From contig NZ_CP047189.1 in the NCBI RefSeq assembly GCF_030440575.1, positions 372,001 through 436,000 of the forward strand: a stretch of DNA of 64,000 bases. Reading direction: 5' to 3'. This stretch comes from Corynebacterium ciconiae DSM 44920 (lineage in GTDB: Bacteria > Actinomycetota > Actinomycetes > Mycobacteriales > Mycobacteriaceae). Both the position numbers and the translations under genes were made by a program. Positions 31,546-49,275 of the stretch are shown one piece after another. Numbering within the stretch: position 1 is the first letter of the stretch; every line of letters starts with the position of its first letter. A model generated the notes under the pieces. That model was not told the DNA's origin and searched no databases. It worked only from the letters and a program-made list of their open reading frames with translations.

Positions 31546-31831
31546 AGTGTTTCTCCACAAGATGGTTGATGTATCCAACCTCTTTACAATAGCGAGCAGA
31601 CCCTCATGGGGCGGGGCATTCTCAGTCCGGCAGATCGGTGGTGTAGCTCACACCGCTCGCTCTGCGCGGTAGTGGTGCACGGTTTAGAGTGAGGGAAGCG
31701 TCGTACAGCATGCGAAGCTAGATTAGGCCTCGCGTTTCACGCTCGCCGTCGGGGGACGTCGGCGACAGGTGTAGCTGATGTGCGCACGCTGTAGCTCAAC
31801 AGTCTTTTTTGGGGGAGGAGTCTGGTGCCAC

Positions 31832-33157
31832 ATGGGTGAGCACTCTGATAAGCATCATCATCCGCTGCGGGCGATATTGCAGCCCACGACGCAAGCGCAG
31901 GTGAGCGGCTATAAGTTTTTGCTGCGTCGCGCTGAACATGGGGTGGTGATGGGTGATATACGTATGATCCACGATCCGCTCGGCGCTAGGAAGAAGGCGC
32001 TCGCCTTCGGCGCCGCTGCGGCGCTGGTAGTGGGGTTGGGGGCGGGCGCGATGGCTGTGTTTTCGCCCCAGCGCGATCCCGGTGAGGTGCCGATCATGGT
32101 GGCAGAGTCGGGAGCGCTGTTTGTGCGCTCGGAGGATGGTCTTCATCCGGTAACCAACCTCGCCTCGGCGCGGCTGGTGGTGGGTGAAGCCGCCACCCCG
32201 GCGCGCGTCTCGGATTCGGTGTTGGCCTCGCAGCGTTTTGCCCACGAGGTGGGTATTGGTTTAGCGCCCTCGGCCTTGGCGGAGTCGGCCCCCGAGCAGC
32301 CGCTGGTGGCCTGCCATGAGGTGGTCAGCGATGAGCTGCACGTGGGCGCGGGCATTGGCTACCGGCCGTTGGCTGAATCGGAGGCCTTTGTGGCGCGGGA
32401 TGATCGTGGCACGGAGTGGCTGGTGACATCGCTGGGGCGGCGCCGGTTGCCCTCGGCTAGCGATGAGCTGGGTGCGGCGACTCGGCAGGTACTGGGGATT
32501 GATCGTTCCACCCCGGTGGTGGACACGTCGAGGGCCTGGCTGAATACGGTGCATGCGCTGCCTGACTTTGTGCTGCCCGCAGCTCCGTGGGAGATCGCGG
32601 ATGTGGGAGATGCGGCCTATTTGATGCGCCGCGAGGGGCTCATTGAGCTCACGCCCACCCAGCGCGACATTCTCGTGCAGCTGGGGGCAGATAGCCGCCG
32701 CCGCACTCGGGAGCAGTTGGAGGGGTATAGCGATAGTGATGCGCAGTTGCAGTTGCTGCGGCGAGAATATGAGCTTATCGACGCTCCGTTTATCGGTGCG
32801 CCAGAGGGGCATCCGGTGGCGGTGTGTTCAGCTGGTACGCAGCGCGGGCCTGGGGTGCGCGCGGCGGCGGTGGAGGGATCGATTCCTGTGCTGGGGGCGC
32901 ACGCCACCCACTATCGGCCGGCGTATGAGGATGAGCACCGCTCGGGCTTGGCCTTTGGGGTGGATACCGCCGAGGGCACGCATGTGATCTCCGAGGCGGG
33001 GCGTCGGCACGCGGTGCCGTCGGGGCGGGAGCTGGCGGTGCTAGGCATCGAGTCCACCACTGCGGCATCGTGGCCGGTGGTCTCTCTGTTGCCACAAGGC
33101 GAGGCCCTGTCTTTTGAAGCGGCTCGCTCTCCTGCACATCGCCCCGCCCAGGACTAG
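31832..33157 (+). CDS. eccB: ESX-4 type VII secretion protein EccB
   Basis: Membrane-anchored core component of the type VII translocon, 441 residues. The cytoplasmic N-terminus PTTQAQVSGYKFLLRRAEHGVVMGD is the EccB signature. One membrane segment follows at about 56-77. The rest is an outer-face repeat domain with two cysteines (VACHEVV and AVCSAG) that probably form the conserved disulfide. GGGGGAGGAG stands about 11 bases before the ATG. It faces mycP and eccD end to end, as in the M. tuberculosis ESX-4 order. The upstream gap of 286 bases has the small hairpin CGCCG/CGGCG near 31745-31765. Confidence 0.95.
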   Translation: MGEHSDKHHHPLRAILQPTTQAQVSGYKFLLRRAEHGVVMGDIRMIHDPLGARKKALAFGAAAALVVGLGAGAMAVFSPQRDPGEVPIMVAESGALFVRSEDGLHPVTNLASARLVVGEAATPARVSDSVLASQRFAHEVGIGLAPSALAESAPEQPLVACHEVVSDELHVGAGIGYRPLAESEAFVARDDRGTEWLVTSLGRRRLPSASDELGAATRQVLGIDRSTPVVDTSRAWLNTVHALPDFVLPAAPWEIADVGDAAYLMRREGLIELTPTQRDILVQLGADSRRRTREQLEGYSDSDAQLQLLRREYELIDAPFIGAPEGHPVAVCSAGTQRGPGVRAAAVEGSIPVLGAHATHYRPAYEDEHRSGLAFGVDTAEGTHVISEAGRRHAVPSGRELAVLGIESTTAASWPVVSLLPQGEALSFEAARSPAHRPAQD

Positions 33158-33189: not shown

Positions 33190-34404
33190 TTAGGTGCTGG
33201 GCCCGGCGCGCCAGCCGCGGATGATGGCGCGCACGGCGATAACCGCGAGGGCTAAGCCTGCCATCATGGCCACGCGGCCGCGGGTGGGATCGGCCTCTGC
33301 GGTGGTGACGGTGATGCTCCGCTGGGTCTCGTCGGGCAGGGTGGTGGTTTCGAGATGGGTGAGGGCGTGGTGGATGTCGAAGCTGCCGCGGGCGGGATCA
33401 GCGGCAGCGGCTAGCCGCTGCCGAATCTCGGCGGGGCTGGTGTGTGGTTGCTGCTGAAGCATCAGCGCCACGGTCCCAGACACCACGGGCGCGGCGAAGC
33501 TGGTGCCGAGGTACTGGCGCAGCTGCTGGTTGTCTGCATATACCCCTGTGGCCAGTCCGGATCCGGTTGAGCTGAGCGCTACCGGCACATCACCGTCGGC
33601 GCTGAGGCGCAGCCCCGTGGAGTCCGAGGCGGGCAGCGCGTAGTCGGCGAGGCCACGCGCCGGGCGGTCCACCGCGCTCACTGAAATCACCGTTGGGAGA
33701 TGCGCGGGATACACCACATCTCCGGGCGAGCAATTCTCTGAGGTGTTGCCGGCGGCAGCCACTATTACTACGCCGTTCTCTTCGGCGCGCTGTACGGCTG
33801 CCACGAGGTCACGGGTGTTGAGTGTCGCCGCGTCGGCGGGTGAGACGCAGGAGACCACCGACACGTTGATCACTGCTGCCTCGGCGTCGAGGGCGGCGTG
33901 GATAGCCTCGGCTAGATTCGCGAGATTGCCTGCGGTTTCGTGCTGCGGGCTACGGTAGTGGGCGCTGGTTTGGCGAACGCTGAGGATCTCCGCATCGGGG
34001 GCGATGCCCACCAACTCATCCTGGTCGGGATCGGCGCGCATGCCGATGATGCCCGCCACCACGGTGCCGTGAGAGTCGCAGTCGATATCTGCCCGTGGAT
34101 GATCGGGGCTGACCATATCCGCGTGGGGGCTCATGTGCAGCCGAGGATGCGCCGCCACGCCGGTGTCCACCACGGCGACTTTCACCCCGTAGCCGGTGGC
34201 GTGTGCATGCGTGGCGCGCAGCGCGCGGGAGCGCCGCGTGGCCTTATCCCAGGCGGCGCGATCGGCCGCCGCGGCGCCGAGTGCCACCGGTTCGGCGCAG
34301 GCAATGGATGGAGGCTGAGGTTCCGGAGGTTCTTGGGCGGTGGCAGTGGGGCAGCAGCCGATTGCCAGCGCGGCAGTACCTAGTAGGCGATAGAGGCGAT
34401 ACAT
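33190..34404 (-). CDS. mycP: Mycosin, type VII secretion subtilisin-like serine protease
   Basis: Membrane-bound protease of 404 residues, needed for type VII secretion in mycobacteria. A signal peptide (about 1-23) is followed by the subtilase domain with a complete triad: D80 in VAVVDTGVAAHP, H112 in DSHGTVVAGI, S301 in GTSFAAPVVSGT, and oxyanion N219 in AAAGNTSEN. A C-terminal membrane segment (MMAGLALAVIAVRAII) anchors it. It lies three bases after eccD on the same strand, so both are likely transcribed together. Confidence 0.95.
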   Translation of the reverse strand: MYRLYRLLGTAALAIGCCPTATAQEPPEPQPPSIACAEPVALGAAAADRAAWDKATRRSRALRATHAHATGYGVKVAVVDTGVAAHPRLHMSPHADMVSPDHPRADIDCDSHGTVVAGIIGMRADPDQDELVGIAPDAEILSVRQTSAHYRSPQHETAGNLANLAEAIHAALDAEAAVINVSVVSCVSPADAATLNTRDLVAAVQRAEENGVVIVAAAGNTSENCSPGDVVYPAHLPTVISVSAVDRPARGLADYALPASDSTGLRLSADGDVPVALSSTGSGLATGVYADNQQLRQYLGTSFAAPVVSGTVALMLQQQPHTSPAEIRQRLAAAADPARGSFDIHHALTHLETTTLPDETQRSITVTTAEADPTRGRVAMMAGLALAVIAVRAIIRGWRAGPST

Positions 34405-34407
34405 CGC

Positions 34408-35835
34408 CTACCACCCCCACGCGCGGATAGCGGCGAATACGCCCATGAGGTGCGCAGACAGCGGAAGAATGGCGGCTAGGGCGATGTGCTCAACCCGTTC
34501 GAGCCGGCGCTGCCAGGTGGGCTCCATGCTGCCAAGCACCCCGGTGAGCAGCGGGGCCGCCCCTGCTGCTGCGAGTGCGGCGCCGGCGATCACCAGCGGC
34601 CAGATAATCCACGCACCCTGCCCCGCAAGATCCGCGGTAGCCAGGCGCAGAGAGCACAGCGCGAGTGCCGCCACGCAGGCGCAGCTCGAGGCCCACAGCG
34701 CCCACATGCTCCACACATCGTGATGGCGGGCGGCATGCACTACCAGCGCGCCCGCGGTGCAGGCGATCAGCGCGAGAGCGAAACCATCGGCGCGGTGTGC
34801 AAGCACCACCACAAGCGGTGCGAGCACCACGGTGAGCCCCAGATAGAACCCGCCCATGATGTGTGCCGTGGTGCGGGCCTTCTTCTCCGGCTCGGCGATC
34901 AGGTGATCCGCCACCTCTAGGTCTTGGCCCGCTGAGGGGATCAGCGGCACCCGCAGCCCAGCGGTCTTGAGTGCCACGGACGGTGCGGTGCTGATCGCAA
35001 TCATCGCTGCGGCGATGGTGCCGGCGCTGGCTGCCGTCCATGCCCCCACACCGGTCAGAAGCCCGCCGCACAGGGCCACCAGCGCCGCCACGGTGATAGC
35101 CGCCGCACAGTGCCTGGTGTGTATCGCCTTTGCGCCAAGCGCCGTGGCCGCGGCGATACCACCGGCGGCAGCCACCAGCGCCCAGCCGGCGGCGGATGGA
35201 GAGCCCCAGACGGTGAGAAGACTTCTTTGGCTCACCGCGCTCGCCGCCGCCACCGCAGCGCTGAGCTGGGCGATCGCCACATAGCAGGCCGTGGCCTCTG
35301 CGCTGAGTCGGCGTCGTGCGCGCATGACCACGCCGCAGGCGCCCACGGCGAGACTGGCGCACCACCACGCCACCGCTGTAGCGCTCAGGGGCGCGGCCAC
35401 GGCACCAAGGCTCAGTACAAGTCCCGCCACCAACAAGGGAAGAGTGTCGAGACCGCGGCGGGATGGGGTGCTGGCGGCGTCGGCAAGCGCATGGGCGGCA
35501 TCCTTGACCACGGGCGCGGCGTGCTGCTCGTAGGGTGCAAGCACCAACACACCGCCGTGCAGGAAGGGCACGCTGTGCAGCGGGCGGGTGGCGTCGATAG
35601 GCACCCCCGCGGCGGTACGGCCCTGCCATGGAACGCTGATCGTTGGGGCATCCAACAGGTCCAGAACCTCGTCTAGAACCTCCGCGAGCGAGGAGCGCGG
35701 CGGCAACACAATATCGAGTTGGCGGTTGCGGTCGGGCTGCTCCGGCACCTGCAAACGAATAGTGGTGGTAACGGCCGTGGTAGCCGGGCGCGGCTCGGCA
35801 AGCGGCGCCGGTGATGCAGGAAGTGACACGGTCAT
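34408..35835 (-). CDS. eccD: ESX-4 type VII secretion membrane protein EccD
   Basis: Polytopic core subunit of 475 residues. The N-terminal about 110 residues form a ubiquitin-like YukD domain (TIRLQVPEQPDRNRQLDIVLPPRSSLAEVLDEVLDLL). About 11 membrane segments follow, starting at about residue 130. This matches EccD. AGGGGGAA stands before the ATG. It is divergent from eccC, with 386 bases between, and runs into mycP. A GGAAC/CGTCG pair on the minus strand at 35928-35956 is a possible ECF promoter. Confidence 0.95.
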   Translation of the reverse strand: MTVSLPASPAPLAEPRPATTAVTTTIRLQVPEQPDRNRQLDIVLPPRSSLAEVLDEVLDLLDAPTISVPWQGRTAAGVPIDATRPLHSVPFLHGGVLVLAPYEQHAAPVVKDAAHALADAASTPSRRGLDTLPLLVAGLVLSLGAVAAPLSATAVAWWCASLAVGACGVVMRARRRLSAEATACYVAIAQLSAAVAAASAVSQRSLLTVWGSPSAAGWALVAAAGGIAAATALGAKAIHTRHCAAAITVAALVALCGGLLTGVGAWTAASAGTIAAAMIAISTAPSVALKTAGLRVPLIPSAGQDLEVADHLIAEPEKKARTTAHIMGGFYLGLTVVLAPLVVVLAHRADGFALALIACTAGALVVHAARHHDVWSMWALWASSCACVAALALCSLRLATADLAGQGAWIIWPLVIAGAALAAAGAAPLLTGVLGSMEPTWQRRLERVEHIALAAILPLSAHLMGVFAAIRAWGW

Positions 35836-36221
35836 AAAAAATCATTCCCCCTGATGAATAGATGCGTGATCACGCCCATGAGAAGAGAGAGCAAGAAACT
35901 CGCCTGCACCAGCGAGCGCCTCAACAACGACGCTGCGGTGCGGCTGCGGTGGTTCCCCCGAACCACATCCCCCTTAACCCCCACGGGGTGCTAACTCAAT
36001 ACCGCAGGCTCTGAAGGAGTTGGCCTGCAGCACCCACCAGCTTGGCTTAGGATCAGTGCCGTGTCCACTCGAGAGCACCCGCCTTGGGTGCCAGCACCGC
36101 CGAGTACCTAAGGCCAGCTAGCTCGAGGGGCGAGAGAAACAACGCCGCCGGCGCGGGGATGGGGGACATACCTGCGCGCCGGGGCGAGACCACAGCCACT
36201 GCTATGGGGGGAGTTTGAACT
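35836..36221. promoter_or_regulatory. Divergent eccD-eccC regulatory region
   Basis: 386 bases with no gene. A perfect inverted repeat GTGGTTC-CCCC-GAACCAC (35949-35966) is present. Read on the minus strand it contains GGAAC (35952-35956), with CGTCG (35928-35932) 19 bases further, resembling an ECF sigma promoter towards eccD. GGGGGGAG at about 36204 is the eccC ribosome site. I could not place an eccC promoter. Confidence 0.5.
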
Positions 36222-39200: not shown

Positions 39201-39920
39201 GCTCTGAAAACCCTGCCGCACCATTTGCCGGCAACGAGCCTGCCCACCAGCGACGAGGTGGTGCTCGGTGTGGGTGGTTCCAGGCTGGAGCCGGTGGTGG
39301 TGGACTTCACCGACACCCAGCACCTGGTGGCCTTGGGCAATAAGGGCTGCGGCAAATCCCAGCTTCTGCGGGTAGTGGGGCGCCAGCTGGCGCAGCTGCC
39401 CCGCGAGCAGGCCCGACTGCTGGTGATCGATCACCGCCGGCGCCACCTCGGGGCTTTCGAGGAAGAGATGCTTGCCGGTTACAGCGGCGCAGCCGAGACC
39501 AGCCGCAACCTCATAAGCGAGCTGTGCACCACACTGAGCCAGCGTCTGCCGAGTGAAGACATCACCCCGCAGCAGCTGCTACAGCGATCCTGGTGGAGCG
39601 GGCCTGAGCTCTATGTGCTCATCGACGACGCCGAACTATTGCCCCCAGGTCTCGTAAATCCACTCGCGCCCTTGATCCCGCACGCCGCCGATATTGGCCT
39701 GCACGTGATCTACGCCCGCAAATCTGGCGGTGCTTCCCGCGCCTTCTACTCACCGGGGCTCGCCGAGATCAAGGACTCCTCCCCGATGATGCTGCTTTTC
39801 GACGCTGACAAGGACGAAGGCCCGCTCTTCGGGGCGAAACCGACCCCGCTTCCACCTGGTCGCGCCCAATTGATACGCGGCGGCACCAGCGAAGGACTGA
39901 TCCAGATGGTGAGTGACTAA
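36222..39920 (+). CDS. eccC: ESX-4 type VII secretion FtsK/SpoIIIE ATPase EccC
   Basis: Motor of the secretion system, 1232 residues. Two membrane segments lie at about 45-92 (IIIPVVMVLAMVGMVALML and MMLLFPLMMGASMLAMF). Three ATPase domains follow: Walker A1 GATGSGKS (about 460), A2 GGPQTGKT (about 797) and A3 GNKGCGKS (about 1039). The first Walker B is intact (LVIVIDEFSELL). The second (LLIDGWQAL) and third (YVLIDDAEL) lack the usual glutamate, as is common for EccC, where the first domain does the hydrolysis. EccCa and EccCb are fused in one protein, as in ESX-4. The accessory gene follows after one base. Confidence 0.97.
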   Translation: MAVAYPQAVEETKAIERIAAPPLPSGSIQPEAVPEAQTRQPVPLVRIIIPVVMVLAMVGMVALMLTGDRQLNPMMLLFPLMMGASMLAMFMPQGGDDTDETRRTYLRHLSHIRRAALNNAAAQRAHELHRHPDPKALYSAASSPRLWERSLGDPDVGEIRIGLGTTALCTPIELHTINATEDLDPVCAVALRHVVTAVDAVPAMPLVVQVGSFSVLSLHGEKARGLARAIIAQLVFHHGPEAMGIEVLSGPRPKATAAHNSEQHTAQSDSTRSAEAAAENEWQWLKWLPHTRTPSEAACRVLIVDVDDSEQPAHVVGSTRWDLIIAIDVHPATPLYEAAYNDGLILRAGANLEVVIVGGDETIGLPDTLSIAEATSLAKALHPYDRPERHNTGVSGELLPLLGYHELEHLRAETLWAPRAPGDPTRLNVPIGVGSDGQPLLLDIKESAHGGVGPHGLCIGATGSGKSELLRTLVVSLALSHSPAELNFVLVDFKGGATFLGLDGLPHTSAVITNLNDEAELVERMSDAISGEMNRRQEVLRAAGNVPNVDAFNAAAAANGTEPMPALVIVIDEFSELLGQHPDFADLFAAVGRLGRSLHIHLLLASQRLEEGRLRGLDSHLSYRIGLRTFSAMESCQVLGVPDAYELPNQPGRGFIKSDAAQVRGFQASYVSGPVSASTGSGGDAIMRVGRFDTRADTVPERGLPSASASEEHTGSAAQSLVDLTVEITTARAAQLGMSAHKVWLDPLPAAIPLGGVVEDIGELRAPVGVIDRPYEQRQDPFVVDFNGQNGHLAVCGGPQTGKTTMLRSIATALASTHSTTTLRFYALDLGGGGLASLDRLPHTAGVAGRENEETIARVVDEVLGFIDEPEQRHTFLLIDGWQALTTDFEELTPGLQRIASEGLAARVHLVIATSRWTALRPSVRDLIGQRYELRLPEPMDSVIDRRRQEKLPALPGRGLNAVGENILIAQSSAQDIAHVARQSEDAGMVAVPALKTLPHHLPATSLPTSDEVVLGVGGSRLEPVVVDFTDTQHLVALGNKGCGKSQLLRVVGRQLAQLPREQARLLVIDHRRRHLGAFEEEMLAGYSGAAETSRNLISELCTTLSQRLPSEDITPQQLLQRSWWSGPELYVLIDDAELLPPGLVNPLAPLIPHAADIGLHVIYARKSGGASRAFYSPGLAEIKDSSPMMLLFDADKDEGPLFGAKPTPLPPGRAQLIRGGTSEGLIQMVSD

Positions 39921-39921
39921 C

Positions 39922-41001
39922 ATGCAGCCGCGTTGGGAAATATCCATCACCGAGGCCGTGACCATCGTGGTGAACGCCGCCACCGCCGAGTCACACTACT
40001 TTTATGATCTCGGCTCCTCCGCCCTGTGTGAACCGGAGCGAGCCCGCGAGCTTGTGGACCAAGTGCGAGACTGTGCCGGTAGCCACTGGCCACACGTGGA
40101 GGTTGTGATCGATGCCGATGACACCCCAGCCGAGCGGGTGCTCGAGCACTGCCACGCCGCCGGCGTCCGGGCCTGGCGCTACGGCGAGAGCCCACCTGCG
40201 GCGCCCACCCCGCGCAGAAACCTGCCGCGGCCCGGCGCTCTCGGCCGCACCGAGCCTCCGCACCCGCCCACAACCGCCTCAACGGGCGAGCAGAGGGAGC
40301 ATGCTCAGCCTCCGCGTTCGCTGCGCCGGCGTTCCCTCCGCGGCTCGGCGGCAGCCCAGCTTTGGGAACGGGTCAATCTATTTAGCGTGGGAATAGTTGC
40401 CGTGGTGCTGCTGGTGGTGGGGGTGAGCTGGTGGTCAACAAGACAGTCGCTGGATCCCGCGCCGGTGAGTGCTCGGGCAGAACCGAGCAGCGCTGATGCC
40501 CCGTCGCCGGTGGGCGAGAATGACGGCGAGGAGGCGTCGACAAGCGCAGATGCTCCGCAAGAGAGCGTGGTGGAGCTTGGGCCGGTGCGGGTGCGCACAC
40601 CGGGAGGGTTTCAGATCGTTGATCGTGGGGACGGTAGCTTCCAGCTCAGCGGCGCCGATCCTGATCTGCGCATCATTATCTCTTTCGATGAGGTCTACTC
40701 GGTGGATCCAGCGGCGGTGATCGCCGAGGTGGAGGCGATGGTGGCGGTGGATGAGACGCTCCGCACCGAGCCGGCGGTGTTTGCCCGCCACGGGCAGCCA
40801 GTGCACACCAGCTATGTAGAGGAGCCAGGGGATGGCTCGGTGGTGCGCTGGATCAGTTGGGTGGAGCACGGCAGTTTAGTGAGCGTGGGATGCCATTCTC
40901 GGGGTGAGCCGAGCCATGCCCACACCGCGAGTTGTCGCATGGCGGTCGACAGCCTTGAACGGCGCGAGACCGGCACGGGGGAGGGGGAGAAAATTTTTTA
41001 G
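39922..41001 (+). CDS. Type VII secretion-associated membrane protein (Rv3446c/TIGR03931-like)
   Basis: A 359-residue protein. The N-terminal about 110 residues form a compact domain (MQPRWEISITEAVTIVVNAATAESHYFYDL). A basic linker, one membrane segment at about 152-172 (SVGIVAVVLLVVGVSWW) and an outer C-terminal domain (ELGPVRVRTPGGFQIVDRGDGSFQLSG ... HTASCRMAVDSL) follow. It stands one base after eccC and before the esx pair, as Rv3446c does in the ESX-4 locus of M. tuberculosis. The family occurs only in such loci. Its exact job is unknown. Two cysteines near the end may form a disulfide. Confidence 0.88.
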   Translation: MQPRWEISITEAVTIVVNAATAESHYFYDLGSSALCEPERARELVDQVRDCAGSHWPHVEVVIDADDTPAERVLEHCHAAGVRAWRYGESPPAAPTPRRNLPRPGALGRTEPPHPPTTASTGEQREHAQPPRSLRRRSLRGSAAAQLWERVNLFSVGIVAVVLLVVGVSWWSTRQSLDPAPVSARAEPSSADAPSPVGENDGEEASTSADAPQESVVELGPVRVRTPGGFQIVDRGDGSFQLSGADPDLRIIISFDEVYSVDPAAVIAEVEAMVAVDETLRTEPAVFARHGQPVHTSYVEEPGDGSVVRWISWVEHGSLVSVGCHSRGEPSHAHTASCRMAVDSLERRETGTGEGEKIF

Positions 41002-41010
41002 AGCCATCGG

Positions 41011-41040
41011 GGGAACCTCAGCTACTGGCAGAAACGTCTA
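41011..41040 (+). promoter_or_regulatory. ECF (SigM-like) promoter of the esx pair
   Basis: GGGAAC (41011-41016), 18 bases, CGTCTA (41035-41040). The first ten bases, GGGAACCTCA, and the CGTCTA are identical to the promoter at 47092, with the same spacing. M. tuberculosis SigM uses, as I recall, GGAAC-N16-18-CGTC and controls ESX-4 esx genes. The leader to the first WXG100 gene is about 155 bases. Confidence 0.65.
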
Positions 41041-41203
41041 TATCCCATGAAGCCACTTGGTTTCACCATCACAGGGGGATTGTGAGGACCATTCGGGGGA
41101 CCATCGCATCCGATCACTGTGTTGTCCAATTCTCTACACATTCGGCAGCAGTCGCTGCCGTTTACGCACACCGGATTTACATAGACCTCTCAAAGGAGCA
41201 GAA

Positions 41204-41518
41204 ATGTCTGGGCTTTTTCGCACAGAATCACAAACCATGGTCGCCACCGCGGGAAAGGTGGATCAGACTAACCACGACGTTCAGGCTGAGCTCGCTAGGC
41301 TGCGCGGCACCGTCGATGCCATCGGCGGTAGCTGGCAGGGCAGTGCGCAGCTGGCCTTCACCAATCTCATGAGTCGCTGGGACGCCTCGGCTAGGCAGCT
41401 GCAGGAGGCGCTGAGCTCCATTTCGGAGAACATCCGCGCTAACGCCCGCGCCTTCGATGTGTCCGAAGCGGATAACGAAAGCGCGTTCCGCCAAGTCGGC
41501 GGCGGCCTGGCGCTGTAG
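41204..41518 (+). CDS. WXG100 protein (EsxU/EsxB-like)
   Basis: Small helical hairpin protein of 104 residues, exported by ESX-4 as a dimer with its neighbour. The WXG turn is SWQGSAQLAF (W44-G46). The C-terminus is FDVSEADNESAFRQVGGG. A YxxxD/E export signal is not present in classic form (FDVSEAD is similar). AAAGGAG precedes the ATG at 41204. The second WXG100 gene follows after 66 bases. Confidence 0.93.
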   Translation: MSGLFRTESQTMVATAGKVDQTNHDVQAELARLRGTVDAIGGSWQGSAQLAFTNLMSRWDASARQLQEALSSISENIRANARAFDVSEADNESAFRQVGGGLAL

Positions 41519-41584
41519 CGCTCTAGCGGTCGACCGCATCGCACCATCCCGCAAAGTTACAAGCAGTACTACCTAGAAAGGCCT

Positions 41585-41881
41585 ATGCCAGCAATGGACA
41601 CTATTCGCTATCAATTCGGCGCCATCAGCCAAGCAGCTGAGGACATTCGCGCCACTTCCGCCAAGATCAATGCCAACCTCGAGCAGCTCAAAGCCCAGAT
41701 TGCGCCGATGACCGCAGCGTGGGAGGGCGAATCCTCCTCCGCCTATCAGGAGGCGCAGCGCGCCTGGGATGCCGCCGCGCTGGAGATCAACACCATTTTG
41801 AACACCATCTCCCGCACGGTCGCCGAGGGCAATGAGCGCATGAGCGACGTCAATCGACGCGCCGCCGCCAGCTGGAGCTAA
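41585..41881 (+). CDS. WXG100 protein (EsxT/EsxA-like)
   Basis: Small helical hairpin protein of 98 residues, the likely partner of the preceding WXG100 protein. The turn is AWEGESSSAYQEAQ (W46-G48). It opens with IRYQFGAISQAAEDIRATSAKI, typical of EsxA-like proteins. GAAAGG precedes the ATG at 41585. An ATG three codons on is possible. A terminator follows at once, closing the ESX-4 locus. Confidence 0.93.
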   Translation: MPAMDTIRYQFGAISQAAEDIRATSAKINANLEQLKAQIAPMTAAWEGESSSAYQEAQRAWDAAALEINTILNTISRTVAEGNERMSDVNRRAAASWS

Positions 41882-41896
41882 CACTGTGAAAAACGA

Positions 41897-41934
41897 TCAC
41901 GCCCACGCCGGCTCATAGCCCTGCGTGGGCGTGA
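41897..41934 (+). terminator. Terminator after the esx pair
   Basis: TCACGCCCACGC (41897-41908) pairs perfectly with GCGTGGGCGTGA (41923-41934). No long T run follows, but the stem is 12 bp. Confidence 0.8.
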
Positions 41935-42275
41935 AACCCCGTACCACGAAGAGTCGTATCCACCGGTTCTACGGCGCAGCAGCCGGTAGGAGAGTGTGTG
42001 CCCGTGGCACCCCCGCAGCATCAGTTGTCTGTAGTCCATTGTCCACCCACTAGGGACGCCAACCATGCCTCTCCAGCGGCGTAGCCTCGAGCCGGCACTG
42101 TCGAAGCAGTGCAGATACACGCACACCCCGGAAGCACCATCGGTGTGCTCGCACGTAGAGATACCTGCGGGCCGGTGCCGCCGGGGTGTGCGCCTGTGCG
42201 CAGTGCCTCCTGCTCGCCGCGAAGCGCTGGGGAGCTGCGAGTTTCGAGGCAATGCGCGAGCGGCTAGGCGAGCGG
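41935..42275. other. Intergenic region after the esx terminator
   Basis: About 340 bases between convergent units. I see no gene, repeat or promoter in it that I can support. Open frames here are short and unlike known proteins. Confidence 0.5.
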
Positions 42276-42959
42276 TTAGGCGATATCCGAGTATTCCTCT
42301 GGCACATCGGCCACCGCCTCGGTGATGGGGGTGGAGCCATCAACAAAGGGGATCACGCGCCGGATCGTGGCCGGCTGATCCAGCACGGCGGCAGCCACCT
42401 TGGCGACGGTGCCGCGGGAGGTATCAGGCGAGACCCCCTCGCCGAGCGGAGTGACCCGCACGGTATCCGCTGCCGGCTCATCGCTGAGGGTGCCGGGGCC
42501 TAGGATGGTCCACTCCAACTCGGTTCCCACCAAGTGGGTATCGGCCGCTAGCTTGGCCACTGCGTAATCGTAGAGCGGATGATCCTTCGGGATCTGCAGC
42601 GGCGAGCGGGAGCCATTGAACGAGACCATCACATACCGCCGCACCCCTGCGGCGTGAGCCGCGTCCATGCTGCGGATAGCCGCATCTCGATCCACGGCAT
42701 AGGTGCGCTGCGCGCCACCCTTGCCGCCGGCGCCGGCCGACCACACCACTGCATCGGCGCCGCTAAGTGCCGCGGTGAGCTCTTCGGTGCTGGCATGTTC
42801 CACATCCACCACCACTGGGCGTGCACCGGCGGCCTCGACATCGGCTGCGTGCTCCGGATTGCGGATCAAGGAGGTCACGCTGTCGCCGCGCTCCTTGAGA
42901 AGAGGAGCAAGCTTGAGTGCGATCTGCCCGTGGCCACCAATAATCACGATGTGAGACAT
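42276..42959 (-). CDS. NAD(P)-binding atypical SDR protein (SDR5/NmrA-like)
   Basis: Rossmann-fold protein of 227 residues. The dinucleotide loop is VIIGGHGQIALKLAPLL near the N-terminus, with the second strand ARPVVVDVE and an active-site-like YAVAK later (YDYAVAKLAADTHL). The family includes YwnB/YtfG-type reductases and stress proteins. The substrate is unknown. I use the ATG at 42959, with AAGGAG eight bases upstream on the minus strand. It is divergent from rplM. Confidence 0.85.
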   Translation of the reverse strand: MSHIVIIGGHGQIALKLAPLLKERGDSVTSLIRNPEHAADVEAAGARPVVVDVEHASTEELTAALSGADAVVWSAGAGGKGGAQRTYAVDRDAAIRSMDAAHAAGVRRYVMVSFNGSRSPLQIPKDHPLYDYAVAKLAADTHLVGTELEWTILGPGTLSDEPAADTVRVTPLGEGVSPDTSRGTVAKVAAAVLDQPATIRRVIPFVDGSTPITEAVADVPEEYSDIA

Positions 42960-43394
42960 AAACAATTCTCCTTAAACAATGACGTGTCGTGTTGTGTCCC
43001 TCAGGGAAGACGCCGCGCCAACTGAAGCGTTGGGCATCTCCTCATGGCAGCACTAACGGCAGTAGCGGGCGAACTATTCCAGCCGCATCCCATCGCTGGG
43101 TTTTTCTTGGAGCCACAGGCGGCTGCTCCAGCCAGCTGCCCAGCCAGCCGTCCAGCCAGCCGCGGGCTAGCGTAGGTGACTGGCTGTGCGAGAGAGTTTG
43201 CGCAGCATAAGGGAGAGAAGCTAAACTGCATTCTTCGTGTGTACTCACACCTATCGCGCCTGCCCTTTTATTGAAGAGGTTTCCAGGCGGGGAGGCTGAG
43301 TACTGATATCGCGGGTCTCCACCGGCCGCCGCGCTATCGCTTGACTGACACGCTTGGCTGGCAGCTAGCAGAATAGACTTTGAAAGGTTTTGCA
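42960..43394. promoter_or_regulatory. Divergent SDR-rplM intergenic region
   Basis: 435 bases without a gene. It holds a 12-bp tandem repeat (separate entry). TTGACT at 43341-43346, with TAGCAG 19 bases on, is a weak candidate for the rplM promoter. AAAGG at 43383-43387 is the rplM ribosome site. Confidence 0.45.
43128..43163. repeat. Three tandem 12-bp repeats
   Basis: CCAGCCAGCTGC, CCAGCCAGCCGT and CCAGCCAGCCGC stand head to tail at 43128, 43140 and 43152. The copy number could vary between strains. They lie about 230 bases upstream of rplM. Confidence 0.7.
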
Positions 43395-43838
43395 TTGTCT
43401 ACTTATCACCCGAAGAGCGGTGACATCACCCGCAAGTGGTATGTCATCGACGCCACTGACGTGGTGCTGGGTCGCCTGGCAGTGACCGCCGCAGGCCTCC
43501 TGCGCGGCAAGGGCAAGCCCCAGTTCGCACCGAACGTCGACTGTGGCGACCACGTCATCATCATCAATGCTGACAAGGTTGCTGTTTCCTCCAACAAGCG
43601 CGAGCGCGAGTTCCGCTACCGTCACTCCGGCTACCCGGGTGGTCTGAAGACCATGACCCTGGGTCGCTCCCTCGAGCTGCACCCGGAGCGCGTTGTGTTC
43701 GAGTCCGTTGAGGGCATGATGCCGCACAACCGTCTCTCCCGCGCCTCGGTGAAGAAGCTTCACGTCTTCGCCGGCTCCGAGCACCCGTATGCAGCCCAGA
43801 AGCCCGAGACCTTCGAGATCAAGCAGGTGGCCCAGTGA
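43395..43838 (+). CDS. rplM: 50S ribosomal protein L13
   Basis: L13 is an early large-subunit assembly protein, 147 residues. It reads [19 protein letters not shown] ... [26 protein letters not shown] ... [16 protein letters not shown]. The start is TTG at 43395, with AAAGG seven bases upstream, and the length agrees with C. glutamicum L13 as I remember it. An upstream in-frame TTG at 43380 lacks a ribosome site. It overlaps rpsI by four bases. Confidence 0.97.
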
Positions 43839-44383
43839 CCGAACAGAATCAGAACGAATCCCAGGTAGCCTCCGCTGAGGACATCGCTGCAGCGCAGGCC
43901 GCAACCGAAGAGTTCACCAACACCATCGGTGACTCCCTCGTGGACGAGTCCGCCGAGACCGCCGAGGCTCCCGCAGCCGAGGGTCCGGCCGACCTCAGCC
44001 AGCCGATCCAGACCGTTGGTCGCCGTAAGCGCGCCGTCGCCCGCGTCACCATGACCCAGGGCACCGGCAAGATCACCGTCAACGGCCGTGACTTCGAGGA
44101 GTACTTCCCCTCCAAGCTGAACCAGCAGGACATCAAGACCCCGCTGACTCTGCTGGAGCGCGAGGGCCAGTTTGACATCCGCGCCCGCATTTCCGGTGGC
44201 GGCCCCACCGGTCAGTCCGGTGCTATGCGTCTGGCTATCGCCCGCGCCCTCAACGAGTACAACCCGGCTGAGCGCAAGGTGCTGAAGAAGGCTGGCCTTC
44301 TCACCCGTGACGCCCGTGCCGTAGAGCGCAAGAAGGCAGGTCTGCACAAGGCCCGTCGTGCTCCTCAGTACTCCAAGCGTTAA
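43835..44383 (+). CDS. rpsI: 30S ribosomal protein S9
   Basis: S9 touches the P-site tRNA through its C-terminal SKR tail, present here (RRAPQYSKR). It has 182 residues. An acidic N-terminal extension of about 55 residues, usual in corynebacteria, precedes the core [26 protein letters not shown]. The GTG start overlaps the rplM stop (GTGA). Confidence 0.97.
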
Positions 44384-44402
44384 ACACACGCTCTATATGG
44401 TT

Positions 44403-44446
44403 CAATGCCCGTGGCTTATATGCCACGGGCATTGCCCTTTTCTTGG
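44403..44446 (+). terminator. Terminator after rpsI
   Basis: CAATGCCCGTGGC (44403-44415) pairs with GCCACGGGCATTG (44422-44434), followed by CCCTTTTCTT. Confidence 0.93.
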
Positions 44447-44568
44447 CCGCTTTTCTTCGCCCCTTTTTTGGGCCCTAGTTCTTGGCAATGGTCGCGATGT
44501 TCGCGATACTCTTGGCAGATTCACAACCCCCTGCGCCGGCGTGCACGAGCAGCCGGCAGCAGCGTGTG

Positions 44569-45552
44569 CTATGCCCACTTAGGCGTCGGTGCCCTCCATG
44601 TGCGCAGCTGGTGCAGTAAGTCATCAGGGCTGTCGGTAACGATCAACGCCTCATAATCCTCGGCGCGAACGAAACCCTCATCCACCATGATCTTCAGCGC
44701 CTGCATGGTCGGCGCCCAGTAGTCGCTTCCAAGAAAAGCAATGGGTTTTGCGTGATAGCCCAGCTGCTGGCCGGTCCACACATCATAGAACTCATCCAAG
44801 GTGCCGGTGCCGCCGGGAAGGCAAATGAAGGCGTCGGCAAGCTCGCTCATGCGCTGCTTGCGGGCGTGCATCGAATCCACCACATCGAGCTGGCTTAAGC
44901 CGGGGTGGGCGATCTCACCGTCTACCAGTTTCTTCGGCATCACTCCGGTGACGGCCCCGCCGGCGTCGAGCGCCGCGGAGGCCACTGCCCCCATGAGCCC
45001 CACCGCGCCACCGCCATACACCAGACGCGTGCCGGTCGCCGCAAGCGCGGCGCCAAGCTCGCGGGCGGCGAGCAGATGCCGTCCATCCTTGCCGGTGCTC
45101 GCGCCGGTAAACACCGCCACCGAGTGCACCGGCTGCTCGCTGAGATAGGGCAGCACGGTCTGCTTTAGCAGCGGTGCCACGTGTTCTCCGGGTGCGTATG
45201 GATCCACCCAACGCACCGCCACATCGCGCTCGCGATCGGCCTGCTCGGCAGCGGCCTCGACTGGCTCGGTGCACAGGAAAAGCGTGGTGGATACCTGCTG
45301 CGGCGCGGTGGGGTCTGTGCTGTGCTCAGGCTCGGCGGTGAACACCCCGCAGCGGGTCAGCTGCTCGGCCTCTAGGCTGATACCGAGCTGTTCGCTCAGC
45401 GCCCGCAGTGCGGCCTGTTCTGCGCTCTCCCCGCTGTGCTGCGGCTGAAGTGGCAGGGTGTAGTCGCCCGAGTCACTCGGCGCAAGGGTGAGTACCCTGC
45501 GGCGAGGGTCGCGGATAATGACGGCACTGATAGCACTGGAATCAACAGACAT
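44569..45552 (-). CDS. Fusion of a degenerate Nudix-like domain with a LOG-family phosphoribohydrolase
   Basis: A 327-residue two-domain protein. The N-terminal about 130 residues have a Nudix fold by pattern, but the Nudix box is broken: [14 protein letters not shown] keeps the arginine and one glutamate of REUxEE but has Ala and Gln where catalysis needs Glu. The C-terminal about 185 residues are a complete LOG domain ([36 protein letters not shown]), which releases the base from nucleoside 5'-monophosphates of cytokinin type. I prefer the ATG at 45552 ([11 protein letters not shown]). TAGCCT seven bases upstream suggests a leaderless mRNA. The next ATG upstream is at 45573. Confidence 0.85.
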
Positions 45553-45704
45553 GGCTGCAAGGCTACTACCCATTCGCTGCGGCGCAATCGCAGCCTGTGC
45601 CAGCGCTCAGGCGCGTTCGACGCGGTACGCATCATACGTCTGACTACCTGCGCTGCTGCATGTCAGGCGTAGGTGCGAGCTGGTTCAGCATGCATAATGG
45701 AGGA

Positions 45705-47048
45705 ATGACTCGACTCTTCGGAACTGACGGTGTACGCGGACTAGCCAATAAGAAGCTGACGGCGCCTCTGGCTCTGCAGCTGGGCGCAGCAGCGGCAGAG
45801 GTACTGACTAAGGAGTACCGCAACTCCAAGCGCCGCCCTGTGGCCATCGTGGGCCGCGACCCGCGCGTCTCCGGCGAGATGCTGGCCGCCGCTATCTCTG
45901 CGGGCATGGCCTCCCGCGGGGTGGATGTGCTGCGTGTGGGCGTGATCCCCACCCCGGCAGTAGCGTTTCTCACCGATGATTATGGTGCAGACATGGGCGT
46001 GATGATCTCCGCCTCGCACAACCCGATGCCGGACAATGGCATCAAGTTTTTCTCCGACGGCGGGCACAAGTTGCCCGACGAGGTCGAGGACGAGATCGAG
46101 CGCCGCATGGATCATATCGGGCCTGAAGGCCCTACCGGCCACGGTATCGGGCGCGTGATCGAGGAAGCCTCGGATGCCCAGGAGCGCTACTTGATGCACC
46201 TTGCGCAGGCGGTGCCGCAGGATCTCACCGGCATCAAGGTGGTGGTCGACTGCGCCAATGGTGCTGCCGCCGAGGTGGCGCCGTTGGCTTATGGTGCCGC
46301 TGGCGCCGAGGTGATCCCGATCCACCACAAGCCCAATTCCTACAACATCAACGATGGCTGCGGCTCTACCCATATTGAAGAGGTTCAGCGCGCAGTCCGT
46401 GAGCACGGCGCGGATATTGGTTTGGCGCACGATGGTGATGCCGATCGTTGTTTGGCGGTGGACGCGGAGGGAAACATCGTTGACGGCGATCAGATCATGG
46501 CCATTCTGGCGTTGGCCATGAAGGCTAATAACGAGCTGCGTAAGAACACCCTCGTGGCCACGGTGATGTCCAACCTGGGGTTGAAGCTGGCCATGCAGGA
46601 TGCGGGTATCGACATGGTCACCACCAAGGTGGGCGATCGTTATGTTCTCGCCGAGCTCAACCGCAGCGGCTATAGCTTGGGCGGCGAGCAGTCCGGCCAC
46701 ATTGTGATTCCTGATCATGGCACCACCGGCGATGGGGTGCTCACCGGTTTGTCGCTGATGGCCCGCATGGCAGAAACTGGCTCCAGCCTTAAGGAACTGG
46801 CCACGGTGATGACAGTGCTGCCGCAGGTGCTCATCAATGTGCCGGTTTCAGATAAGTCGGTGATTGTGGATCATCCGAGCGTGAAGGAGGCCATCACCAA
46901 GGCTGAGCAGGAACTGGGCGATACTGGCCGTGTCCTGCTGCGCGCCTCGGGCACGGAGGAGCTTTTCCGCGTCATGGTTGAGGCCGCTCACGAAGAGCAG
47001 GCCCGCAAGGTGGCTGGCCGCTTGGCCGCTGTGGTGGCCGAGGTATAG
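45705..47048 (+). CDS. glmM: Phosphoglucosamine mutase
   Basis: Converts glucosamine-6-phosphate to glucosamine-1-phosphate for UDP-GlcNAc and cell-wall synthesis. It has 447 residues. The phosphoserine loop is [12 protein letters not shown], the magnesium loop [11 protein letters not shown], the sugar loop GGEQSGHIV, and the phosphate loop [12 protein letters not shown]. It opens [22 protein letters not shown] precedes the ATG at 45705. It follows rplM-rpsI, as in mycobacteria. Confidence 0.97.
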
Positions 47049-47091
47049 TCTCGCCCTTTTTGCGCGGCGCTGACATTTTTATGAGCGCTGT

Positions 47092-47121
47092 GGGAACCTC
47101 AAGGGTTGCGACGTGCGTCTA
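47092..47121 (+). promoter_or_regulatory. ECF (SigM-like) promoter of the operon after glmM
   Basis: GGGAAC (47092-47097), 18 bases, CGTCTA (47116-47121). It begins GGGAACCTCA and has the same spacing and -10 as the esx promoter at 41011. Transcription would begin about 70 bases before the first gene. Confidence 0.65.
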
Positions 47122-47195
47122 ACTCGGTGAGAAGGTGCGCTCCTGTTTTCTACAGGGGCACTCCGCCGTTGCTTTGACCACACCTGGGGGAGGCT

Positions 47196-47519
47196 ATGTC
47201 GCATACCCACCTAGCATTCGATCCACCGACCGCACTGGCCCGCACGTCCGAGCTGCTGCAGAGAATCGCCGACAACGCGCATCTGCACCAGCGCCAGGCG
47301 CCGCAGTTTCCACCTGGCGCCGCAGGCGCGGGCCTGCGTGATCGTGGCGAGGCTCTTGCTCGTTTATTCACTCAGCTCCACACCGATACCGCGGTGGCGT
47401 TGGATGCTGTTCGCTTATCGACGCACACCGCCAGCGATCACCTCCGGGCGCTTTCAGAGAGTGACCGTGATGTAGCCGGTGCCCTCTCCCGTATCAATGC
47501 CGGAGGTGAGCCTCGATGA
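47196..47519 (+). CDS. Small helical protein, EspC-like (Rv3440c position)
   Basis: A 107-residue all-helical protein. The layout resembles the ESX-1 EspC family (PF10824-like): FDPPTALARTSELLQRIADNA, a glycine turn near GAAGAGLRDRG, a long second helix, and LSESDRDVAGALSRI at the end, where EspC has a YxxxD/E export motif. Here the tyrosine is leucine. GGGGGAGG precedes the ATG. Its stop overlaps the next gene by four bases (ATGA). It occupies the place of Rv3440c after glmM. That it is a type VII substrate is inference. Confidence 0.65.
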   Translation: MSHTHLAFDPPTALARTSELLQRIADNAHLHQRQAPQFPPGAAGAGLRDRGEALARLFTQLHTDTAVALDAVRLSTHTASDHLRALSESDRDVAGALSRINAGGEPR

Positions 47520-49003
47520 GAGAGTCCGTGACCTGTTACGCCTCCACGGTAGAGGCCTTCCAGAACGCAGCTGGGCCGCTCTATAGTGGGCCGCAGATCA
47601 GCTCAGCGGAGCTTCACGCCGCTGCCGACCATCTCTTGGGCCTAGACACCGGCGCGCTACGCACCGCCGCGCGCAGCGCGATGGGAGAATCCGCCCCGCA
47701 CGATACCGCCCGTTGGGTCGGGCAGATGCTCAATCCCGCTCTCAGCGGGGTGGCCGATGGGGGGATTAGTGGTGGACTCACCCAAGCCGTGGGGCAGTGG
47801 CAGTGCCGCGTCGACGGTGCAGCCACGGTGAACGCCGCGGCACATGCCTGCGCCGACAGCATCGACGCGGTGGGCCACAGCGCCCACGACGCCGCCCACA
47901 CCATGACCTTAAGTTTGGACGAGGCGGTACGGGCGGTGTGCCAAGCGCTGAATCTGGTGGGCACTGTGGGTGGCGGTGGTCTCGCCCAGCAGTTGGTGCA
48001 CATGGGCTCTGGTCTCATCGACAGCGCCGGCCAGCAGCTCCTTGGCATCATTCGCGATCACGACACCGCCGTGTCCGGATGCTTGGATGATCTCATTAGC
48101 CACGCCGAGCAGCAGTGCCTTGTGCAGCCGCCACTGTGCACCCCTGAGCCGCCCTGTGAACCTGCCGCCAGTGCGCCACCGACGGCTCCGGGAGCAAACT
48201 GTCCAGAACCAGCACCCTGCCCACCGCCTGCACCGGCACCAGTCCCGCAGCCAGGCCCGGTATGTGAACCCGCTCAAGCCGCGCCGCCTGCTCCGCCACC
48301 ACAGCCGACCCCACCGGCGCCACCACAGCCAGAGCCGCAGCCCTGTCCGCCGCCACCGCCAGTCGCACCGGCGATGCCACCCGCGGCGCCTGCTGAGCAG
48401 TGTGTCACGCATCCAGCGGCCGCGCCGCCGTGCCCCGTCGCAGAACTGGGGCGGGTAATGGGAGAGTCCGTGGCGCTGGCGAGCAACGCCATGGCTACTG
48501 CGGCCGCAACCGGAATGGCAGAGGCCCAAGCGGCACTAAGTGGGCACCTCGACGCGGCGCTCACGATCAATGCTGATGTCTCTGCACACCTCGGCTCTGC
48601 GCCTGTCGACTGCCCACCGGCAGCGGTGCCCGACTGTCCGCCAGTGGCAGAGCAACCCTGCGAACCTCCCGTACCGGAGCCGCAGCCGGCACCAGAGCCG
48701 GAGCCGCAGCCAGAACCCGACCAGCCTTGCCCGCCGCAGGATCTCGATGCTGTGCCGGAGCCGGAGCCGCCGGCACAAAAGGTGGCAATGCTCGGTGGTG
48801 AGCACAACCCTGAAGCTGCGGCCGCACCGGATCCCAGCCCAGCAGAGACTCCAGAGCAATCTACCCCAGATCCGGCACCTGCCGCCCAGCCAGAACCTGA
48901 ACCACCTTCGCCCCCAGCTGATCCGGCAGATATCGCCCCGCCACAGAATGAAGGAGCTGCTGATGAGCGCACCGTCTCTCCCCGAAAGGCAGGTACGTGG
49001 TGA
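47516..49003 (+). CDS. Pro- and Cys-rich protein, possible type VII effector (Rv3439c position)
   Basis: A 495-residue protein with no signal peptide. A helical N-terminal domain (about 1-205) is followed by Pro/Glu/Cys-rich low-complexity segments (about 206-310 and 370-495), interrupted by a second helical stretch (about 315-370, ELGRVMGESVALASNAMATA). I count 18 cysteines, most in P-C-P or similar context, unusual for a cytosolic actinobacterial protein and fitting an exported one. M. tuberculosis has an Ala/Pro-rich protein of similar size at this place (Rv3439c). Its function is unknown. It overlaps the gene before and is coupled to the gene after. Confidence 0.7.
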   Translation: MRESVTCYASTVEAFQNAAGPLYSGPQISSAELHAAADHLLGLDTGALRTAARSAMGESAPHDTARWVGQMLNPALSGVADGGISGGLTQAVGQWQCRVDGAATVNAAAHACADSIDAVGHSAHDAAHTMTLSLDEAVRAVCQALNLVGTVGGGGLAQQLVHMGSGLIDSAGQQLLGIIRDHDTAVSGCLDDLISHAEQQCLVQPPLCTPEPPCEPAASAPPTAPGANCPEPAPCPPPAPAPVPQPGPVCEPAQAAPPAPPPQPTPPAPPQPEPQPCPPPPPVAPAMPPAAPAEQCVTHPAAAPPCPVAELGRVMGESVALASNAMATAAATGMAEAQAALSGHLDAALTINADVSAHLGSAPVDCPPAAVPDCPPVAEQPCEPPVPEPQPAPEPEPQPEPDQPCPPQDLDAVPEPEPPAQKVAMLGGEHNPEAAAAPDPSPAETPEQSTPDPAPAAQPEPEPPSPPADPADIAPPQNEGAADERTVSPRKAGTW

Positions 49004-49275
49004 ATAACGTACACCCAGATTTTGCTCGGCACCTTGAGAACTTTCAGCGTCATACCAGCGCACGGCTAGCGGAGTTTTCCCGTTCTCTCGACGAGCTCAC
49101 CGCCCAGGCCCGCCGCGAGGCGAGGGCGAGCGCAGAGCAGGCGCCTAGTCCGCGTCACCCTGCCACGGGCCACCGCGATGGCGGTGCAATGGGGGAGGGG
49201 AGGTGGCGTCGACAAGCGCATACGCGCAACGCCCCGCGCGGGCCAGTACGGGGAGTGCTGAGAAACTCGCCGTAG
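48997..49275 (+). CDS. Small hypothetical protein, third gene of the operon
   Basis: A 92-residue protein. The first about 48 residues are a likely amphipathic helix (FARHLENFQRHTSARLAEFSRSLDELTAQARREA). The rest is basic and glycine/arginine-rich. It starts at GTG 48997 or 49000, inside the end of the preceding gene, so translation is coupled. A copy of the recurring 16-mer (GGTGGCGTCGACAAGC, 49202-49217) lies inside its 3' part, and the reading frame may have been extended by it. No family recognised. Confidence 0.5.
   Translation: MVNNVHPDFARHLENFQRHTSARLAEFSRSLDELTAQARREARASAEQAPSPRHPATGHRDGGAMGEGRWRRQAHTRNAPRGPVRGVLRNSP

Follow-up and report, generated by a model that had tools for sequence, protein, structure and literature searches.

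A 64,000-nucleotide stretch of the chromosome of Corynebacterium ciconiae DSM 44920 (contig NZ_CP047189.1, positions 372,001 to 436,000), here called the window and numbered from its first letter, contains an ESX-4 secretion locus and, behind glmM, an operon of three genes, op1, op2, and op3. The same promoter-like sequence stands in front of the esx gene pair of the former and in front of the latter. This arrangement raises the questions of whether both sites are real promoters, which sigma factor would read them, and which other genes it would control. Comparisons within Corynebacterium and with related genera indicate that the two sites are very probably promoters of one sigma factor of the extracytoplasmic function (ECF) class, most likely SigM, which would drive a program combining secretion, envelope, and DNA functions.

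Two matching sites and their conservation

The 30-base pattern GGGAACCTCA-N14-CGTCTA is present twice in the window, at 41011-41040 and 47092-47121. Its first part occupies 41011-41020 and 47092-47101, and CGTCTA occupies 41035-41040 and 47116-47121, with 18 bases between GGGAAC and CGTCTA in both copies. These coordinates and the equal spacing, first listed in an earlier note on this DNA, are exact, and none of 100 dinucleotide shuffles of the window contains a match. The related pattern GGAACC-N16..18-GTCTA finds only the same two sites (shuffle mean, 0.02), and GGGAAC-N16..20-CGTC finds five matches, among them the site before eccD described below, versus a shuffle mean of 0.83. The spacers and flanks of the two sites differ. 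Both sites have the layout of an ECF promoter, a GGAAC-type -35 element and a short -10 element 16 to 19 bases apart:

41011..41016, + strand: -35 element GGGAAC (GGGAACC with the next base) of the esx promoter; letters, shuffles, and presence before esx at 28 of 30 loci in the genus
41036..41041, + strand: -10 element GTCTAT (core GTCtAa) of the esx promoter; conservation, and register from leaderless starts at other sites
47092..47097, + strand: -35 element GGGAAC of the post-glmM promoter; letters, shuffles, and retention in 26 of 27 glmM-bearing loci
47117..47122, + strand: -10 element GTCTAA of the post-glmM promoter; letters, conservation, and register

The genus comparison covers the window and 29 loci fetched by relatives of eccC (30 in total; loci are labeled L and genomes G below). 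In 28 of these loci (the misses are L042 and L052), GGAAC-N16..20-NGTC is present in the 400 bases before esx gene 1. Behind glmM it is present in 26 of the 27 loci that hold this gene (the miss is L052; L042, L043, and L048, in which no glmM was found, are left out of this count). The stricter GGAACC-N16..18-GTC[ACT][AT] is found at 23 of 30 esx and 25 of 27 post-glmM loci, and elsewhere in the same loci it has 16 matches in 1.33 Mb, both strands, several of them before eccB, eccC, or eccD. The letters conserved across loci are GGAACC and GTCnA, the base before GTC being A in most species and C or G elsewhere. The description of the two promoters as identical holds within the window, but the TCA that follows GGGAACC there varies in other species, where GGAACC and GTCnA are kept. 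Alignment with the closest relative (L028) shows that at both promoters the two elements and the stretch behind the -10 element are retained and the spacers have diverged.

Similar sites are found outside the genus. Manual reading of 26 glmM loci from other genera of the family reveals GGAACC-N17-CGTC before a small open reading frame (ORF) and then a longer ORF in 14 of them. Among 20 loci fetched upstream of rplM in other genera, an esx gene could be detected in 14, each of which contains GGAACC-N-CGTC about 55 to 530 bases before it (L426 on a second look); L408 and L426, where more than 450 bases intervene, did not clearly show the first esx gene. GGAACC-N15..17-CGTCNNA has 18 matches in the 20 loci versus 0 in the reversed sequence. 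Both sites, esx and post-glmM, are carried by 11 genomes of other genera, so that the twin promoter probably predates the genus Corynebacterium. Read as phylogenetic footprints, these sequence comparisons confirm that both window sites are real promoters.

Candidate target genes and predicted transcription starts

In the complete 2,584,365-base chromosome, GGGAAC-N17-19-CGTC, the search pattern suggested in the earlier note, has 27 matches versus 37 in the reversed control. This is the chance rate, and the pattern therefore says nothing alone. The conserved letters give a working consensus, GGGAACC-N17/18-GTCtAA, and the corresponding search, GGGAACC-N16..18-GTCHAA, returns 99 matches versus 6 reversed in 15 genomes and 834 versus 85 reversed in 151 genomes, 130 of which have at least one. 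Another site of this genome, 1288086, was rejected as chance because it lies opposite a 525-aa ORF.

A set of 163 sites from 24 genomes was examined: the 99 sites (14 genomes), 4 added from this genome, two of them with a looser last base, and 60 from nine genomes. The esx and op1 sites of this genome are outside the set. The nine-genome sample consists of all sites of G143, G098, and G137, along with 12 of 13 from G149, 7 of 11 from G117, 6 of 8 from G012, 3 of 5 each from G006 and G089, and 1 of 8 from G029. One of 18 gene classes, whose reference proteins were mostly drawn from these same sites, is found within 1.5 kb downstream of 125 of the 163 sites (123 when only classes seen in at least two genomes are counted). 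The other 38 sites matched no class, and some of them are surely due to chance.

The most widespread class is the gene before treY (17 of the 24 genomes), followed by op1/op2 and NlpC/P60 (14 each), an HNH nuclease (13), an SAF protein (12), esx (11), tag and the long partner of a lipoprotein (9 each), the DUF3558 lipoprotein itself and recA (8 each), and an AbiEi-like protein (6). Prepilin peptidase, eccB, eccC, and eccD are represented in 2 genomes each, and LexA and DUF4192 in 1 each. Pfam searches with one representative per class support GmrSD_C/HNH_4, NLPC_P60, SAF, DUF3558, Adenine_glyco, Peptidase_A24, DUF4192, and LexA; the same searches gave no convincing family for the gene before treY or the long partner of the lipoprotein, and AbiEi stayed below the cut-off. 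The recA class and treY were named by eye. Spacers of the eight recA sites share only 29% of their bases on average; what has been kept is therefore the motif and not the whole stretch. In this genome, further sites precede the NlpC/P60 pair (2069798), the SAF gene (1843589), and recA (1559360), and site 1274058 lies more than 600 bases upstream of the lipoprotein and its partner.

The gene in front of treY belongs to a family of approximately 200 aa (L250, L273, L185, L298, and others) that bears the promoter in the 17 genomes counted above. By eye, the HNH nuclease has a hydrophobic N terminus, and a RecX-like gene lies behind recA.

The idea that one ECF sigma factor switches on the ESX-4 genes and the post-glmM operon as a small secretion regulon is partly supported: it is right in essence but too narrow. 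A single promoter class does precede the esx pair and the post-glmM operon, genus-wide and in other genera, but more than two operons carry it. Nor is the set confined to secretion genes, as the promoter is also found before recA, tag, the HNH nuclease, the SAF protein, and the gene before treY. Because it precedes hydrolase, nuclease, tag, and recA genes, the sigma factor would run a joint secretion, envelope, and DNA program.

The 163 sites also provide the register of transcription. The pattern that yielded them allowed N16-18 only; within this range, the spacer from GGGAACC to GTC is N17 at 122 sites, N18 at 39, and N16 at 2, and the base before GTC is A at 118, C at 31, G at 12, and T at 2. 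ORFs no shorter than 80 aa have their start codon 5 to 7 nt behind the motif at 63 of the 163 sites, exactly at +6 in 43 cases, versus 0 to 7 sites for each other offset up to 39. Start codons so close to the -10 element would make these mRNAs leaderless and thus place the predicted transcription start 6 to 7 nt downstream. Applied to the window, this register predicts transcription starts at about 41047-41048 (esx) and 47128-47129 (post-glmM), in agreement with the positions 41047 and 47128 guessed previously.

SigM and the competing explanations

The mycobacterial SigM consensus contains GGAAC and CGTC. There are seven sigma factor genes in the C. ciconiae genome, including those that we take to be SigA, SigB, and SigH. 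Four were scanned with NCBIfam: SigE and ShbA (SigD) are above the cut-off, and one factor is above the cut-off on a sigma-factor model, with SigC second. The SigM candidate has the NCBIfam SigM model as its best match:

Genome positions 2,573,526-2,574,158: SigM candidate; NCBIfam best model

The consensus sequences reported for Corynebacterium glutamicum are GGGAACT/CGACTA for sigma-C, GGAAT/GTT for sigma-H, and GGAAC/cGTT for sigma-E (PMC5483222, PMC10012870), and sigma-D has a T at the second -35 base (PMC6338062). None of these fits GGAACC/GTC, and SigM is therefore the best candidate for this promoter class by elimination. Mycobacterial data point in the same direction. Deletion of sigM in Mycobacterium tuberculosis is reported to lower the expression of esx-4 genes 2- to 4-fold (PMC10117145), and a review citing Clark 2018 states that in Mycobacterium smegmatis, ESX-4, a wall hydrolase, and a nuclease come under the direct control of SigM when cells make contact (PMC9514802). 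The same kinds of genes recur here, with esx in 11, NlpC/P60 in 14, and the HNH nuclease in 13 of the 24 genomes, a comparison with the pertinent passages of that review at the level of gene kinds rather than of hydrolase and nuclease families.

The distribution of SigM speaks in part for this assignment. Similarity to the SigM of this genome is 1.2e-32 or better in 28 of 29 genomes; the best match in L052, the only locus found without both promoters, is 1.1e-12. In G058, GGGAACC-N16..18-GTCHAA has 0 matches. Among the 151 genomes, the 111 with a SigM match at an E value of 1e-25 or better have a median of 7 sites (4 have none), whereas the 40 with a weak or no match have a median of 1 (17 have none). 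The difference is significant in the Mann-Whitney test (p 3.6e-12), a statistic that ignores kinship, and the similarity, being scored against the protein of this genome, mixes distance with absence.

Several observations weigh against the assignment to SigM. With 146 bits on the NCBIfam SigM model, the candidate falls short of the cut-off of 190. L052 is a metagenome-assembled genome (91% complete if it is the same as G058) and represents a single event. At least 4 sites are found in 9 of the 40 genomes with weak SigM, among them G117, whose sigM is split, and G077, whose SigM-like gene is diverged and located close to the end of the chromosome, and 10 of the 111 genomes with strong SigM have 1 site or none. 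L042 has no esx site despite a strong SigM. In none of the 29 loci scanned is there a consensus site at sigM itself; autoregulation is common but not obligatory. The base before GTC varies, differing even between the two promoters of one species (L051 and L053 are examples), and no matching change of a SigM residue was seen in a by-eye covariation check. Every scan demanded GTC, leaving GTT and GAC sites uncounted. A 2025 paper cites the sufR start as SigM dependent after Nakunst 2007 (PMC11995493). A weakness on the side of the proposed op1 and op2 products is that the EspC family T7SS_ESX_EspC (Pfam ID PF10824) is matched by none of 26 Corynebacterium op1 proteins, and neither op1 nor op2 has a convincing family in this genus (Pfam and PDB profiles for both, NCBIfam for op2).

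Of the alternatives, the best placed, though still improbable, is that SigC owns the promoters and couples ESX-4 to respiration defects. Its consensus differs from GGGAACC/CGTCTA by just one base per element (PMC5483222), and SigC is present here and matched at 8.8e-66 or better in 150 of 151 genomes. However, GTC rather than GAC was found before esx in 28 of 30 loci and behind glmM in 26 of 27, in a scan that was restricted to GTC and did not look for GAC at the three misses. G058, which lacks both promoters, has a strong SigC, as do the genomes with few sites, and the control reported for mycobacterial ESX-4 is by SigM (PMC10117145, PMC9514802).

Recognition by SigE, or by SigE and SigH, of sites of the form GGAAC-N17-18-cGTT is less likely still. 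Such sites would share the -35 element GGAAC and a similar spacing (PMC10012870), and SigE and SigH are reported to overlap in C. glutamicum, but GTC and not GTT stands at the loci just counted (28 of 30 and 26 of 27, again with GTC asked for and the misses not searched), and the downstream genes are unlike the heat and surface stress sets in the descriptions available (PMC5483222, PMC10012870). Just as unlikely is control of ESX-4 by Fur and iron, with the ECF-like motif secondary. In C. glutamicum, Fur is reported to bind upstream of eccB, and exsI is up on iron limitation and H2O2 (PMC12607788); however, the Fur site reported there lies at eccB rather than at either of the two promoters considered here, control by Fur does not exclude a sigma factor, and the footprint spans genera. 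An origin of the two sites by chance or from duplicated DNA, for which only the chance rate of loose motif versions speaks, can be dismissed, as it is contradicted by the footprints: the shuffles are empty, spacers and flanks differ, and the sites are kept in other species with diverged spacers.

SigM thus remains the preferred owner of the promoters. In 2017, a study of the complete set of seven C. glutamicum sigma factors found four reported SigM promoters, that of sufR among them, to be SigH dependent and confirmed no SigM promoter (PMC5483222). The footprints now supply a consensus, candidate targets, and predicted starts for this factor, making the open question of corynebacterial SigM function directly testable in C. 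glutamicum with its single ESX-4 system. Among the open-access papers listed, none is, judging by title, on SigM and ESX-4 in Corynebacterium.

In G117, sigM is in two pieces approximately 10.6 kb apart (L164 1414-3231 and L180). The first piece is followed by a serine recombinase ORF (Pfam Resolvase) and the second by an ORF that looks trxB-like by eye, so that a mobile element appears to sit inside sigM. Phages in comK are a similar case. The neighborhood of an ECF factor and trxB is also the likeness to C. glutamicum, where sigM and trxB are presumably syntenic.

The secretion locus and its putative cargo

The first two products of the post-glmM operon resemble an EspC-like protein and a long secretion substrate. 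Its genes overlap, op1 and op2 by four bases and op2 and op3 by seven:

47196..47519, + strand: op1, 107 aa, EspC-like helical protein (putative fold); profile match to same-position genes of other genera
47516..49003, + strand: op2, 495 aa, with an N-terminal part, a long Pro-rich part, and a conserved C-terminal tail; 21 orthologs aligned
48983..49000, + strand: codons of the op2 tail RKAGTW; G and W invariant in 21 of 21 aligned proteins
48997..49275, + strand: op3, 92 aa; ORF, 68% identical in L028

The 26 op1 proteins align around one invariant Gly, and their profile matches that of the proteins encoded at this position in other genera (hhalign probability, 75.6; E value, 2.4e-5). PF10824 scores above the cut-off in 1 of 5 of the latter, whose profile also touches Esx structures weakly (3ogi, 0.014). 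No match was found between op1 and the esx profile. A WXG100 match in 1 of 4 op2-position proteins of other genera (E value, 6.6e-4) is below the cut-off. Homology searches retrieved one relative of op1 besides itself and no match for residues 1-210 of op2; op3 has no Pfam family. The op2 tail is mostly RKAGxW and resembles the end of esx gene 2, RRAAASW[SG] or variants. From their sequences, op1 and op2 look like a pair of an EspC-like protein and a long substrate-like protein, and op2 may share with Esx a tail that serves as a dock for EccC. The pair is similar to EspA-EspC pairs in that a small and then a long protein are encoded in one operon and the small one is an EspC match in another genus. 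Unlike those pairs, op1 and op2 match no family in Corynebacterium, and op2 has the long Pro-rich part and the RKAGxW tail. We take op1 and op2 to correspond to Rv3440c and Rv3439c, and none of the papers listed under these names is on SigM by its title.

From the promoters, their conservation, the site set, and the register, we infer a model in which the SigM holoenzyme would recognize GGGAACC and then GTCtAA 17 to 18 bases on. Transcripts from the site at 41011 would carry the ESX-4 WXG100 pair behind a leader of about 155 nt, and those from the site at 47092 the post-glmM operon behind one of about 67 nt. op1 might act as an EspC-like helper and op2 as a long substrate of the type VII secretion system (T7SS), with its RKAGxW tail docking on EccC as RRAAASW would. 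The same promoter would serve the NlpC/P60 pair, the HNH nuclease, the SAF protein, the lipoprotein and its long partner, tag, and, in 8 of 24 genomes, recA. The post-glmM and hydrolase pairs thereby become candidate ESX-4 cargo.

As for the purpose of the program, we tentatively consider DNA acquisition, which seems possible rather than probable. ESX-4 and its substrates, the hydrolase, and the HNH nuclease would open the envelope and process DNA, and RecA and Tag, joined by LexA in one genome and by a prepilin peptidase in two, would complete uptake and recombination. By analogy, the program might correspond to the SigM/ESX-4 response that contact induces in mycobacterial DNA recipients. As ESX-4 is thereby linked with recA and tag, its possible part in DNA exchange can be tested beyond mycobacteria.

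The Corynebacterium set is probably a form of the SigM/ESX-4 regulon of mycobacteria that comprises additional genes. In both, an ECF promoter containing GGAAC and CGTC precedes ESX-4 genes. Mycobacterial SigM is reported to activate esx-4 and to target ESX-4, a wall hydrolase, and a nuclease directly (PMC10117145, PMC9514802), kinds of genes that have the promoter here as well. In contrast to mycobacterial SigM, the -10 element here is AGTC at 118 of 163 sites, and the promoter is also found before recA, tag, the genes for the SAF protein and the DUF3558 lipoprotein, and the gene preceding treY, unlike in the mycobacterial regulon as described in these sources. Some members, op1 and op2 included, may already be known in the latter.

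The ESX-4 locus itself has EccB, EccC, EccD, a mycosin (below its cut-off), and a WXG100 pair in one cluster:

31778..33157, + strand: eccB (ESX-4); TIGR03919 above cut-off
33190..34404, - strand: mycP (mycosin); TIGR03921 at 245 bits, under the cut-off of 278.75; Peptidase_S8
34408..35835, - strand: eccD; TIGR03920 above cut-off
35929..35957, - strand: weak ECF-like site before eccD, doubtful; loose scan; -35 element kept and -10 element not kept in L028
36222..39920, + strand: eccC; TIGR03924 and TIGR03925 above cut-off
39913..41001, + strand: Rv3446c-type T7SS-associated protein; TIGR03931 above cut-off
41042..41203, + strand: long 5' leader of the esx mRNA (predicted); strongly conserved with L028 (alignment)
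41204..41518, + strand: esx gene 1, WXG100, 104 aa; Pfam PF06013, E value 1.9e-18
41585..41881, + strand: esx gene 2, WXG100, 98 aa, C terminus RRAAASWS; Pfam PF06013, E value 3.3e-18

The gene order is like that of the C. glutamicum locus by locus number: eccB, Cgl0571; mycP, 0575; eccD, 0576; eccC, 0577; and WXG100, 0579-0580 (PMC12607788). By position and by Glu8 and Met12, which are invariant in 11 aligned esx gene 1 proteins, the sequence identifies esx gene 1 as the counterpart of ExsI (Cgl0579) of that locus, whose reported control, unlike that proposed here, is by Fur at eccB, with the esx promoter not tied to a sigma factor in the sections available (PMC12607788). The letters GGAAC-N19-CGTCG, pointed out earlier upstream of eccD, are real, but the -10 element is not kept in the closest relative and the refined consensus is not fitted, which makes this site doubtful in C. 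ciconiae. There is no consensus site before eccB or eccD in this genome; eccB, eccC, or eccD has one in some species.

The esx leader (41042-41190) is far more conserved with L028 than the promoter spacer is, which hints at a function of the leader. G114 (99% complete) has a promoter-bearing esx pair, post-glmM genes, and a strong SigM, yet no eccC match at 1e-50. A number of Corynebacterium genomes (G026, G035, G071, G076, G121, G126, G127, G134, G136, G141, G142, and others) contain a further EccC-like ORF, of approximately 1350 aa and distinct from the first, possibly on mobile elements.

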